Assembly: GCA_003215895.1 (NCBI GenBank)
Contig: QCJR01000002.1
Location: 1 to 64,000 of the forward strand
Source of the DNA: Prochlorococcus sp. AG-409-D14
GTDB taxonomy: Bacteria; Cyanobacteriota; Cyanobacteriia; PCC-6307; Cyanobiaceae
Reading direction: 5' to 3'
Length of the DNA: 64,000 bases
Shown here: positions 27,840 through 62,628 of the stretch, one piece after another
Numbering within the stretch: position 1 is the stretch's first letter
Layout: the number at the start of each line of letters is the position of its first letter
Translations under genes and position numbers: made by a program
Notes under the pieces: model-generated
What the model saw: the letters and a program-made list of their open reading frames with translations, nothing else
Databases searched by the model: none
What the model was told of the DNA's origin: nothing

Positions 27840-28352
27840 ATGAATGAAAAGAAACCAACTTTTAAAGAGGCTATGCAAGCTTCAATGATTTGGTGCAAAA
27901 GTTGGGAAAATGATGAAATAAGTGACGAAGTTATATCTGATCGAATTGGTGAGCTTATTAAAACAGTAGAGGGAGCGAGAGGATTTTTTGTTGTAAGTCT
28001 CTCAATAGATTGCCCTTTAATGGATAGATTTCCTGATGCATTGATTTTTCAATTAAGAAATTCTGGAGAAATTGTTGTCGACTTAACCGTAAAGAATCTT
28101 GCCATGAGTTCAGCGATGATAATTACACATCGAAATAATAAAGATCCTCATGAAATACAATCAAAGAGAATAAAAATTCGGTGTATTGAATTACTTAAGC
28201 TATTAGATTCAACTCAGGTAAAAAAACGTTTAGATGTTTTGCTTGAAGCAACAAAAGGGACTGGGAAAGACTTGGAATTTCTTAATAAATGGGGTTATAA
28301 CGATGAACAAATCAATGCAATATCAGAAAGTATTTTTGAAGTTGCAACATAA
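27840..28352 (+). CDS. Hypothetical protein
   Basis: 170-aa ORF, isolated, followed by a terminator hairpin. Confidence 0.7.
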   Translation: MNEKKPTFKEAMQASMIWCKSWENDEISDEVISDRIGELIKTVEGARGFFVVSLSIDCPLMDRFPDALIFQLRNSGEIVVDLTVKNLAMSSAMIITHRNNKDPHEIQSKRIKIRCIELLKLLDSTQVKKRLDVLLEATKGTGKDLEFLNKWGYNDEQINAISESIFEVAT

Positions 28353-28380
28353 AAAAAGAGCCTTTAGGCTCTTTTTTTAT
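28350..28380. terminator. Bidirectional intrinsic terminator between convergent genes
   Basis: aaaaaaagagcctttaggctcttttttt: 6-bp AGAGCC/GGCTCT stem, TTTA loop, A/T tracts on both sides. Confidence 0.85.
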
Positions 28381-28397
28381 GTTTAATTTTTTTAACC

Positions 28398-29135
28398 TCA
28401 ATCTCTTCTACCACCTCCCTGAAGAGCAATAATAAGACGAAGAACAAAAACAAATAAATTTATATAAGTTAAATACATTCCCAATGCTCCTGCTAAATAC
28501 TGTTCATCGTTGTACCTTCTTGGCATTGTATAGAAATCCACAAAAGACATGGCAACAAAAAGTACTGTTCCAAAACCAGCAATCATTAATTCAAAGCCAC
28601 TGCCTCCAAACATCCCTGGAGCAAATAAACCACCAATAAACTGAAAAACCATCGCAATAATTAGACCAAGCAATCCAAGACCAACTGCACCCTGCAAAGC
28701 TTGACCAACGTTATCGCTCATTTTTCTACCTACAGAAGATGCAATAACGAAAGTTATTCCAGTAGCAAATACAGCTGTTCCGATGGCTCCCATTCCTGCA
28801 ACTTGAATTGCCAACCCAACAATCCCACTAAGAGTAAAACCAGTTAACAAGCTGAATCCGGTTAATAGTGGGAGCGCCTTAGAGTTATTTGCATTGTTGG
28901 CAGCACTGCTTGCCATAAAAAACAGAACAATTTCTGCAATAAATGCAACTATAAATAATGGACCAAATAGAGGATTGTTAGTTCCTTGTAAAGAGAGGCC
29001 ACCTAAAACACCTAATCCGGTTAATGCCATTCCTCCGCCTACATAAGGCAAGGCTTTATTAACTACATTTGGGCCAATAAGTGCACTTGATTGTGCTTCA
29101 CGAATAGCTTGTTGAAAATTGCTGTTTGCTGGCAT
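28398..29135 (-). CDS. Bax inhibitor-1/YccA family membrane protein
   Basis: Seven-TM-like hydrophobic pattern, family-like GLxxGG and C-terminal YINLFVFVLRLIIALQGGGRRD. Confidence 0.8.
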   Translation of the reverse strand: MPANSNFQQAIREAQSSALIGPNVVNKALPYVGGGMALTGLGVLGGLSLQGTNNPLFGPLFIVAFIAEIVLFFMASSAANNANNSKALPLLTGFSLLTGFTLSGIVGLAIQVAGMGAIGTAVFATGITFVIASSVGRKMSDNVGQALQGAVGLGLLGLIIAMVFQFIGGLFAPGMFGGSGFELMIAGFGTVLFVAMSFVDFYTMPRRYNDEQYLAGALGMYLTYINLFVFVLRLIIALQGGGRRD

Positions 29136-60144: not shown

Positions 60145-61254
60145 ATGGCTGACTTAGTTATTCTGGTTTTATTTCTTATATCAGGTGCAATCACCGGATG
60201 GATTGGTGTGAATTGGTTACCTGAAGAAACACTTAATCATATTACTAATTTAAAAAATTTAAAAATTGCTCTATCAGGATTAACAGCTCTTTTAGGTCTT
60301 TTAATAGCCTTCCTTTTTCAGCAATTTAGAAATAAATTAACCAAAAGAATAAGAACTATGCCAACAGATCTACTGGTTAGTAGATCTGTTGGCATAGTTC
60401 TTGGACTTGTCATAGCAACCCTATTGTTAGTACCTGTACTCCTTTTACCTTTACCCACTGAATTATTTTTTGTAAAGCCTATTTTTGCTGTACTTAGCAA
60501 CATTTTCTTTGGAGTGCTTGGATATAATCTTGCCGATGTTCATGGTCGAACAGTTTTACGTCTTTTTAATCCAAGTAGCACTGAATCTTTGCTAATGGCA
60601 GATGGGATTCTAACTCCAGCAAGTGCAAAAGTTTTAGATACCAGCGTAATAATTGATGGTCGAATTCAGTCCCTTCTTAAATTTGGATTAATAGAAGGCC
60701 AAATAATTGTAGCCCAATCAGTTATGGATGAACTCCAAAAATTAGCTGACTCAAGTAACAACGAAAAGCGAGGCAAAGGAAGGAGAGGACTAAAATTACT
60801 AAACCAATTAAGAGAAAGTTATGGAAGAAGATTAGTTATCAACAGTACCAAATATGAAGGGGAAGGAACTGATGAAATTCTTTTAAAATTAACCTCTGAC
60901 ATTAAAGGGATATTAATCACTGTAGATTACAACTTATCTCAAGTAGCTCTAGTCCAAGAAATTAAAGTTCTTAATTTAAGTGATTTAGTACTTGCGGTTA
61001 GGCCTGAAGTTCAACCTGGTGAGAAGTTAAATCTAAAAGTAGTTAGAGAAGGTAAGGAAAACTCACAAGGTATTGCTTATCTTGAAGATGGCACAATGGT
61101 AGTTATTGAGGAGGGGCTCCAATGGATTGGTAAAAGAATAGAAGTAGTTGTGACTGGAGCATTACAAACACCGACGGGCCGAATGGTTTTTAGTAAAGCT
61201 TCAAATGATCAGCCCCCGAACAAATTTGAAAAAACAAAAGCATCTCAAAGCTAG
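60145..61254 (+). CDS. PIN/TRAM domain membrane-anchored protein
   Basis: Four N-terminal TM segments, PIN domain VLDTSVIIDGRIQSLLKFGLIEGQIIVAQSVMDELQKLADS...GRRGL, C-terminal TRAM-like domain. Confidence 0.9.
   Translation: MADLVILVLFLISGAITGWIGVNWLPEETLNHITNLKNLKIALSGLTALLGLLIAFLFQQFRNKLTKRIRTMPTDLLVSRSVGIVLGLVIATLLLVPVLLLPLPTELFFVKPIFAVLSNIFFGVLGYNLADVHGRTVLRLFNPSSTESLLMADGILTPASAKVLDTSVIIDGRIQSLLKFGLIEGQIIVAQSVMDELQKLADSSNNEKRGKGRRGLKLLNQLRESYGRRLVINSTKYEGEGTDEILLKLTSDIKGILITVDYNLSQVALVQEIKVLNLSDLVLAVRPEVQPGEKLNLKVVREGKENSQGIAYLEDGTMVVIEEGLQWIGKRIEVVVTGALQTPTGRMVFSKASNDQPPNKFEKTKASQS
60351..60402. repeat. Perfect inverted repeat, 24-bp arms, 4-bp spacer
   Basis: aagaactatgccaacagatctact-ggtt-agtagatctgttggcatagttctt; arms 60351-60374 and 60379-60402. 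Confidence 0.97.
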
Positions 61255-61292: not shown

Positions 61293-61967
61293 ATGACTGC
61301 ATCTTCCCCATATTATGGCGATTCTGCCGTAATGAGAACTCCTCCCCCTGATTTACCATCACTTCTTCTTAAAGAAAGGATAGTTTATTTAGGCTTGCCA
61401 CTCTTTTCCGACGATGATGCCAAAAGGCAACTCGGAATGGATGTAACTGAACTAATTATTGCCCAACTTCTGTTTCTAGAATTTGATAATTCTGAAAAAC
61501 CTATTTATTTTTACATTAACTCAACTGGAACGAGTTGGTACACAGGGGATGCAATTGGATTTGAAACTGAAGCCTTTGCAATCTGCGACACTCTCAGATA
61601 CGTTAAGCCTCCAGTGCATACTATTTGCATAGGTCAAGCGATGGGCACTGCAGCAGTAATACTTTCAGCTGGGACAAAAGGGCAGAGAGCAGCATTACCT
61701 CATGCATCAATTGTCCTTCATCAGCCCAGAAGTGGGGCTCAAGGCCAAGCAACTGATATTCAAATCAGAGCAAATGAGGTTATTCACAACAAGAAAGAAA
61801 TGCTCAAAATCTTGAGTCATAACACTGGAAGATCAATAGATCAATTATCCAAAGACTCAGATCGAATGAGTTATCTCAACCCTCACGAAGCAGTTGATTA
61901 TGGAATTATAGATAGAGTTCTTACTAGTAGAAAAGACTTACCAGCCGAGAAAGTTTTACCCACATAA
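61293..61967 (+). CDS. clpR: ClpR-like (probably proteolytically inactive) Clp protease subunit
   Basis: ClpP fold sequence, but the catalytic-Ser region reads GQAMGTAAVILSAG rather than the [14 protein letters not shown] of the next gene. Confidence 0.9.
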   Translation: MTASSPYYGDSAVMRTPPPDLPSLLLKERIVYLGLPLFSDDDAKRQLGMDVTELIIAQLLFLEFDNSEKPIYFYINSTGTSWYTGDAIGFETEAFAICDTLRYVKPPVHTICIGQAMGTAAVILSAGTKGQRAALPHASIVLHQPRSGAQGQATDIQIRANEVIHNKKEMLKILSHNTGRSIDQLSKDSDRMSYLNPHEAVDYGIIDRVLTSRKDLPAEKVLPT

Positions 61968-62025
61968 CCAAAATAATTTTAATTTTTCAAATTATTTCCC
62001 TCAACTACTCAACATTTAATTAGCC

Positions 62026-62628
62026 ATGCCTATAGGTACCCCAAGCGTTCCATACCGTCTTCCAGGAAGTCAATTCGAAAGATGGGTTGATATATATACA
62101 AGACTTGGTGCGGAGAGAATTCTTTTTCTCGGCCAAGAAGTAAACGACGGCATTGCAAATAGCTTAGTAGCTCAAATGCTTTATCTTGATTCTGAAGACA
62201 GTAGTAAGCCGATCTATTTGTATATAAATAGTCCAGGAGGCTCTGTAACCGCGGGTTTAGCCATCTATGACACGATGAAATACGTAAAAAGTGATTTGGT
62301 AACCATTTGTGTTGGGCTAGCGGCCTCAATGGGTGCTTTTTTACTGTCTGCAGGAACAAAAGGGAAAAGGCTTGCACTACCCCACAGCAGGATCATGATT
62401 CACCAACCACTTGGAGGTACCGCTCAAAGACAAGCAAGTGACATAGAGATTGAAGCTCGAGAAATTCTAAGGATAAAAGAAATGCTAAATAAATCCATGG
62501 CAGAAATGACAGGTCAAACATATGAAAAGATAGAAAAAGATACTGATCGTGATTACTTTTTAAGCGCGGAAGAAGCAAAAAATTATGGTCTAATTGACCG
62601 AGTGATAACCCATCCAAGTGAAAGCTAA
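62026..62628 (+). CDS. clpP: ATP-dependent Clp protease proteolytic subunit
   Basis: [33 protein letters not shown] (Ser), [10 protein letters not shown] (His). Confidence 0.97.

Follow-up and report, generated by a model that had tools for sequence, protein, structure and literature searches.

An inverted repeat within the PIN-TRAM gene of Prochlorococcus probably kept in concert by replicative template switching between its arms

Host gene and position of the palindrome

The window, meaning the whole stretch of 64,000 nucleotides that was analysed, derives from a Prochlorococcus assembly of 20 contigs that is 55% complete. On its forward strand, positions 60145..61254 carry an intact ORF for a PIN-TRAM membrane protein of 369 amino acids, with Pfam matches to TRAM and PIN_4. 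The protein opens with hydrophobic N-terminal segments, followed by the PIN_4 domain at residues 163-277 and the TRAM domain at residues 289-338, and its closest solved structure, the PIN domain TTHA0540 (PDB 3ix7, E 1.4e-24), covers the PIN part only. Of 398 genomes in the family, 373 have an orthologue, as do 59 of 60 genomes sampled from the class. Downstream of the gene lie two adjacent ClpP-like genes (window 61293-62628), the first of which appears from its sequence to resemble the non-catalytic ClpR type.

Within the PIN-TRAM gene, an inverted repeat extends over 60351-60374 and 60379-60402, with all 24 of 24 nucleotides complementary around the 4-nt loop GGTT. This direct comparison of the arms bears out the initial annotation, which had described perfect 24-bp arms and a 4-bp spacer inside an intact ORF. 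The left arm AAGAACTATGCCAACAGATCTACT (60351..60374, + strand) runs from the third base of codon 69 to the second base of codon 77, the spacer (60375..60378, + strand) comprises the third base of Leu77 together with codon 78 and differs between relatives, and the right arm AGTAGATCTGTTGGCATAGTTCTT (60379..60402, + strand) covers codons 79-86, encoding SRSVGIVL. At the outer end of the right arm, GGC ATA GTT CTT (60391..60402, + strand; GIVL) pairs base for base with AAGAACTATGCC of the left arm. The window contains no stronger inverted repeat, the sequence of the palindrome occurs once in the genome, and the RNA fold predicted for the region has an energy of -42.5 kcal/mol (z = -10.1).

Base p of the gene (0-based) pairs with base 463-p, placing codon position 3 opposite position 3 and positions 1 opposite positions 2, so that the arms can co-vary synonymously. 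On the opposite strand, an open frame of 61 codons, RTMPTDLLTSRSVGIVL (60318..60503, - strand), spans the symmetric stretch as previously described, with no evidence of this antisense ORF being a gene. The core peptide PTDLLxSRSVG reads nearly alike in antisense, and its first and second codon positions are therefore complementary for protein reasons alone, so that information about the palindrome itself comes only from third codon positions and the 10 outermost base pairs. The earlier claim that the symmetry exceeds chance thus holds in part: the counterpart of the repeat in the congener G005 exceeds a Markov control, while the core's complementarity at codon positions 1 and 2 is explained by the protein.

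The initial annotation had also considered an assembly or foldback artefact. Single-cell whole-genome amplification can produce foldbacks, and the window genome is incomplete and fragmented; the ORF is nevertheless intact and aligns without gaps to its orthologues, and near-perfect palindromes with different arm sequences occur in independent assemblies, including six single-contig genomes (G002-G007), which excludes this option for practical purposes. Equally negligible is the insertion of a palindromic mobile element comparable to the Rickettsia palindromic elements. Such elements can sit within ORFs in other bacteria (PMC6649704), but neither the extra length nor the multiple copies that would mark one were found here, with orthologues lacking the palindrome having the same number of codons in a gap-free alignment and the sequence being single copy.

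Covariation of the arms across the genus

Near-perfect versions of the palindrome were found in ~30 congeneric genomes, in which the arm sequences differ yet covary. Covariation of the arms across orthologues, the test that had been proposed for this repeat, is thus present, among 31 genomes. The 248 wobble-wobble cells of these genomes comprise 223 Watson-Crick pairs, 5 G-U, 10 A-C, and 10 other combinations. The pair T71:I84 occurs as T-A, A-T, and G-C (codons ACT:ATA, ACG:ATC, and ACA:ATT), T74:S81 as A-T, T-A, G-C, and C-G, and the codon combinations of Pro73:Val82 include CCA:GTT and CCC:GTG. Another mark of template switching, inversion of the spacer, was not seen by eye in the aligned loops.

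Compensatory changes that preserve pairing, a feature of structured RNA, are therefore present here, although they are not diagnostic of a selected RNA, because copying between the arms yields the same pattern. A functional hairpin could act, for example, as a translational pause before a membrane segment, as an RNase III site, or as a binding and cleavage site for the PIN-TRAM protein in its own mRNA, with compensation maintained by selection. The strong predicted stem, the covarying arms, and a product that combines an RNase-like PIN domain with a TRAM domain all speak for this explanation, and the absence of the long stem outside the genus, where the PIN-TRAM gene is conserved, speaks against it.

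Substitution rates at the paired sites

Selection for pairing is expected to slow the paired synonymous sites and to tolerate G-U, whereas copying from arm to arm should leave the neutral rate unchanged, since every new mutation ends up in both arms or in neither. With the other codons of the PIN-TRAM gene as neutral yardstick, the same amino acids elsewhere in the gene give an expectation of 53 third-position changes in the arms, and 57 were counted by parsimony (P = 0.67), indicating no reduction of the substitution rate at the paired synonymous sites. The exception is Gly83, which changed once where 5.1 changes were expected and which pairs with Met72, an invariant ATG; 30 of the 31 genomes use GGC here, though no other glycine codon is as rare in these genes. 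Tolerance of G-U above A-C mismatches was likewise not observed, with 5 G-U against 10 A-C cells and a worse fit of the models that accept G-U. The initial annotation had taken freely diverged synonymous sites in orthologues as a sign that no structure is selected; divergence at the neutral rate agrees with that expectation, but the sites diverge in pairs.

Likelihood comparison of copying and selection

Likelihoods were computed on a tree built without the arms. The independence model reached a lnL of -234.0, selection for the stem -213.6, and G-U-tolerant selection -218.2, and selection with a free mutation rate reached -194.6 at 3.8 times the neutral rate. Arm-to-arm copying with a single parameter gave -186.7, with a best mutation rate close to 1x neutral (-186.99 at 0.75x, -186.72 at 1x, and -188.79 at 1.5x), and the addition of selection to copying left the lnL at -186.7 (S = 0.12), a gain of 0.02. 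The copying rate in the clade was ~16, in units where fourfold sites change at ~3. Copying in one direction was rejected, with left to right only at -191.1 and right to left only at -194.4, both below the two-way value of -186.7; the fitted directional rates were similar, being 18.7 from left to right and 14.4 from right to left. Registers shifted by whole codons gained at most 6.1, compared with 41-47 at the true register, and the models kept their order when the tree was built from flanking DNA or replaced by a star tree. Among the eight pairs, copying fits worse than independence at one, D75:R80, while the outermost pair is neutral between the two.

In a parametric bootstrap of the difference between copying and selection, the observed value was +8.3. 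The 40 simulations under selection had a mean of -5.3 and a maximum of -0.4, so that 0 of 40 gave a comparable likelihood pattern, and the 40 simulations under copying had a mean of +6.2; the bootstrap covered these two simple models. Selection with direct double substitution, a model with two parameters, comes within 2.6 log units of copying (lnL -189.3) and is the closest that a functional RNA approaches in these fits, but it has to place direct double substitutions at 0.89 times the neutral rate of a single site; fitting slightly worse than copying, it is disfavoured.

The unlowered synonymous rate, the absence of a G-U excess over A-C, the negligible contribution of selection once copying is included, and the simulations together make a functional RNA unlikely. 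If selection acted on the DNA itself, through a cruciform or a palindromic protein-binding site, pairing would have to be strictly Watson-Crick without G-U, in line with the better fit of the Watson-Crick-only models over the G-U-tolerant ones. A binding site should, however, keep its sequence, whereas these arms change at the neutral rate; the selection models still lose to copying, and the sequence is single copy, which leaves selection at the DNA level a good deal less likely still than a functional RNA. The selected mRNA hairpin or cruciform offered in the initial annotation is accordingly unneeded and fits worse on rates, likelihoods, and simulations.

Origin of the outer stem

The long stem is missing outside the genus, and direct comparison with sister lineages provides the basis for reconstructing its origin. 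At position 84, Leu occupies 80 of the 81 other picocyanobacterial rows and Ile all 31 of the genus clade; at position 85, all 81 other rows have Ile and all 31 clade members Val. The sister lineages encode GLIL, as in L022, which has GGATTAATACTT with the left arm AAGAACTATGCC, where the genus has GGCATAGTTCTT; a further sister lineage, L021, carries an AAT/ATT version. Read as its reverse complement, the L022 left arm AAG AAC TAT GCC gives exactly the genus sequence GGC ATA GTT CTT. The change from GGA TTA ATA to GGC ATA GTT is thus a clustered multi-base change that matches the reverse complement of the opposite arm, as expected of a template switch. From this sequence match we infer that the outer stem arose on one branch through a template switch that extended a core of ~14 bp.

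In 55 low-GC outgroup sequences, covariation is weak at the inner four pairs, with a copying rate of 0.9 compared with 16 in the clade, and the inner-core signal is fitted equally by copying (+7.2) and by selection (+6.9). No covariation was found at the outer pairs of these 55 sequences, where the palindrome is absent. This single comparison of clade and outgroup suggests that longer arms are corrected faster.

A separate observation concerns L124 (G043:C1:1635865-1636956), a sequence from another genus, in which Ile84 (GGC ATA) replaces the otherwise invariant Leu. These codons are again what the left arm of L124 (TATGCC) reads in reverse complement, and L124 is possibly an independent short extension of the palindrome.

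Proposed mechanism

The palindrome is best explained as a quasipalindrome corrected by replicative template switching, with long-term concerted evolution of its arms, a reading to which we assign a probability of about 0.83. Both the covariation and the success of the copying model indicate arms made more alike by copying. In the proposed course of events, the antisense-symmetric codons of PTDLLxSRSVG would provide the starting point, an imperfect inverted repeat of ~14 bp that is present in most picocyanobacteria. The exact sequence match suggests that, on the branch leading to the genus, a template switch of the polymerase at this repeat used the left arm as the source for the right; the palindrome would thereby have grown outward to 24 bp, with Gly-Ile-Val taking the place of Gly-Leu-Ile. 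Since then, a synonymous mutation in one arm would have been copied to the other or reverted, in either direction, a course that matches the observed pattern; the molecular step may be the nascent strand folding back or a switch to the sister strand. The arms would in this way evolve in concert at the neutral rate, bounded by what the protein tolerates. A benefit of the hairpin itself is neither required nor detectable. The template-switch event that had been suggested as one of several explanations is supported as the initial rewriting of the segment, and it is extended here to a recurring correction throughout the genus.

Relation to known systems

Quasipalindrome correction is well established in Escherichia coli (PMC7202029), where thyA is a hotspot of quasipalindrome template-switch mutations (Ripley 1982, Viswanathan 2000, Dutra and Lovett 2006, cited in PMC7202029). 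The present case resembles the E. coli quasipalindromes in that an imperfect inverted repeat in a bacterial gene is perfected by copying between its arms, but it differs from those laboratory reporter mutations in being read across a genus, with a rate expressed relative to neutral mutation. Monttinen and Loytynoja (2022, PMC8794818) put forward template switching as a source of RNA hairpins and a means of their maintenance, an idea that shares with our case compensatory changes that come from mutation and not from selection, and a new stem formed in one event. That study concerns RNA genes, in which structure is also selected and the evidence for maintenance was called circumstantial, whereas the Prochlorococcus stem is protein-coding and its synonymous sites allow mutation and selection to be separated.

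In the coding palindromes of Nematomorpha mitochondria, repeat conversion was proposed, possibly by template switching (Mikhailov et al. 2019, PMC6649704), and there, as here, perfect inverted repeats lie in conserved coding sequence with arms in concerted evolution. Those repeats belong to animal mitochondria, reach up to 284 bp, and are longest in codon phases 1 and 2, while the Prochlorococcus repeat lies on a bacterial chromosome, measures 24 bp in phase 3, and permits a quantitative test of conversion against selection. In coding genes of yeast, template switching has been proposed to make the arms of inverted repeats alike (Abraham and Hazkani-Covo 2021, PMC8604942), causing adjacent amino-acid replacements comparable to GLI -> GIV; the yeast events lie between strains and parental nodes, whereas the Prochlorococcus repeat has been kept in concert over a genus. 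A text search of the open-access literature found no earlier description of Prochlorococcus coding hairpins. The mechanism is already known; what is new is a long-lived bacterial coding case that separates selection from copying, and the PIN-TRAM palindrome is an unusually clear one.

A selected RNA structure is conventionally proven by covarying base pairs; this stem covaries strongly, and mutation accounts for its changes better than selection does. Because the paired sites are synonymous, the remainder of the gene supplies their neutral rate, and it becomes possible to test directly whether compensatory changes are selected or made by template switching, a question raised for RNA genes. The fits also give a rough idea of how quickly correction of a 24-bp palindrome proceeds compared with point mutation.

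Other coding inverted repeats

A census of inverted repeats within ORFs covered 1.2 Mb of the congener G005 (G005:C1:1-1200000, L168-L227). The counterpart of the PIN-TRAM palindrome, with 25-bp arms and a 2-nt loop, is the longest inverted repeat in any ORF of this stretch, the runner-up measuring 18 bp, and in both of them third codon positions face each other. The stretch contains 13 coding inverted repeats of at least 13 bp per arm, compared with ~0.7 in a first-order Markov control that takes coding and non-coding DNA together; per 1.2 Mb the control yields ~0.3 arms of 13 bp, ~0.3 of 16 bp, and none longer. A third coding palindrome of 16 bp, at 510935, lies in a gene present in six genomes only.

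A second coding palindrome is located in an HlyD-family membrane-fusion gene (L205:6204-6241; G005:C1:746204-746241), with 18-bp arms, a 2-nt loop, and the codon phase of the PIN-TRAM case, and its arms covary among 25 genomes. Its outer pair combines AAC with TTG and AAT with TTA, Asn256:Thr263 occurs as C-G and T-A, and a replacement of Asn AAC by Ser AGC appears together with the synonymous change of Leu TTG to CTN. Copying is preferred over selection by ~4 log units, each at its best mutation rate, and the best rate at this locus is ~0.5x; this replicate is weaker because some of its pairs are conserved.

A broader claim, to which we give slightly less than even odds, is that template-switch correction of short palindromes may be pervasive in Prochlorococcus coding DNA, so that covariation alone could not prove RNA function there, and that it may drive replacements at conserved sites (GLI -> GIV in PIN-TRAM and Asn -> Ser in the HlyD-family gene). 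The PIN-TRAM case serves as a warning that covariation screens of bacterial coding DNA may return false positives.

Elsewhere in the window, a perfect 18-bp inverted repeat with a 2-nt loop, AACATAAAAAAAGAGCCT, occupies 28346-28383, at the junction of the convergent ORFs 27840-28352 (+ strand) and 28398-29135 (- strand), and it looks like an ordinary bidirectional terminator.
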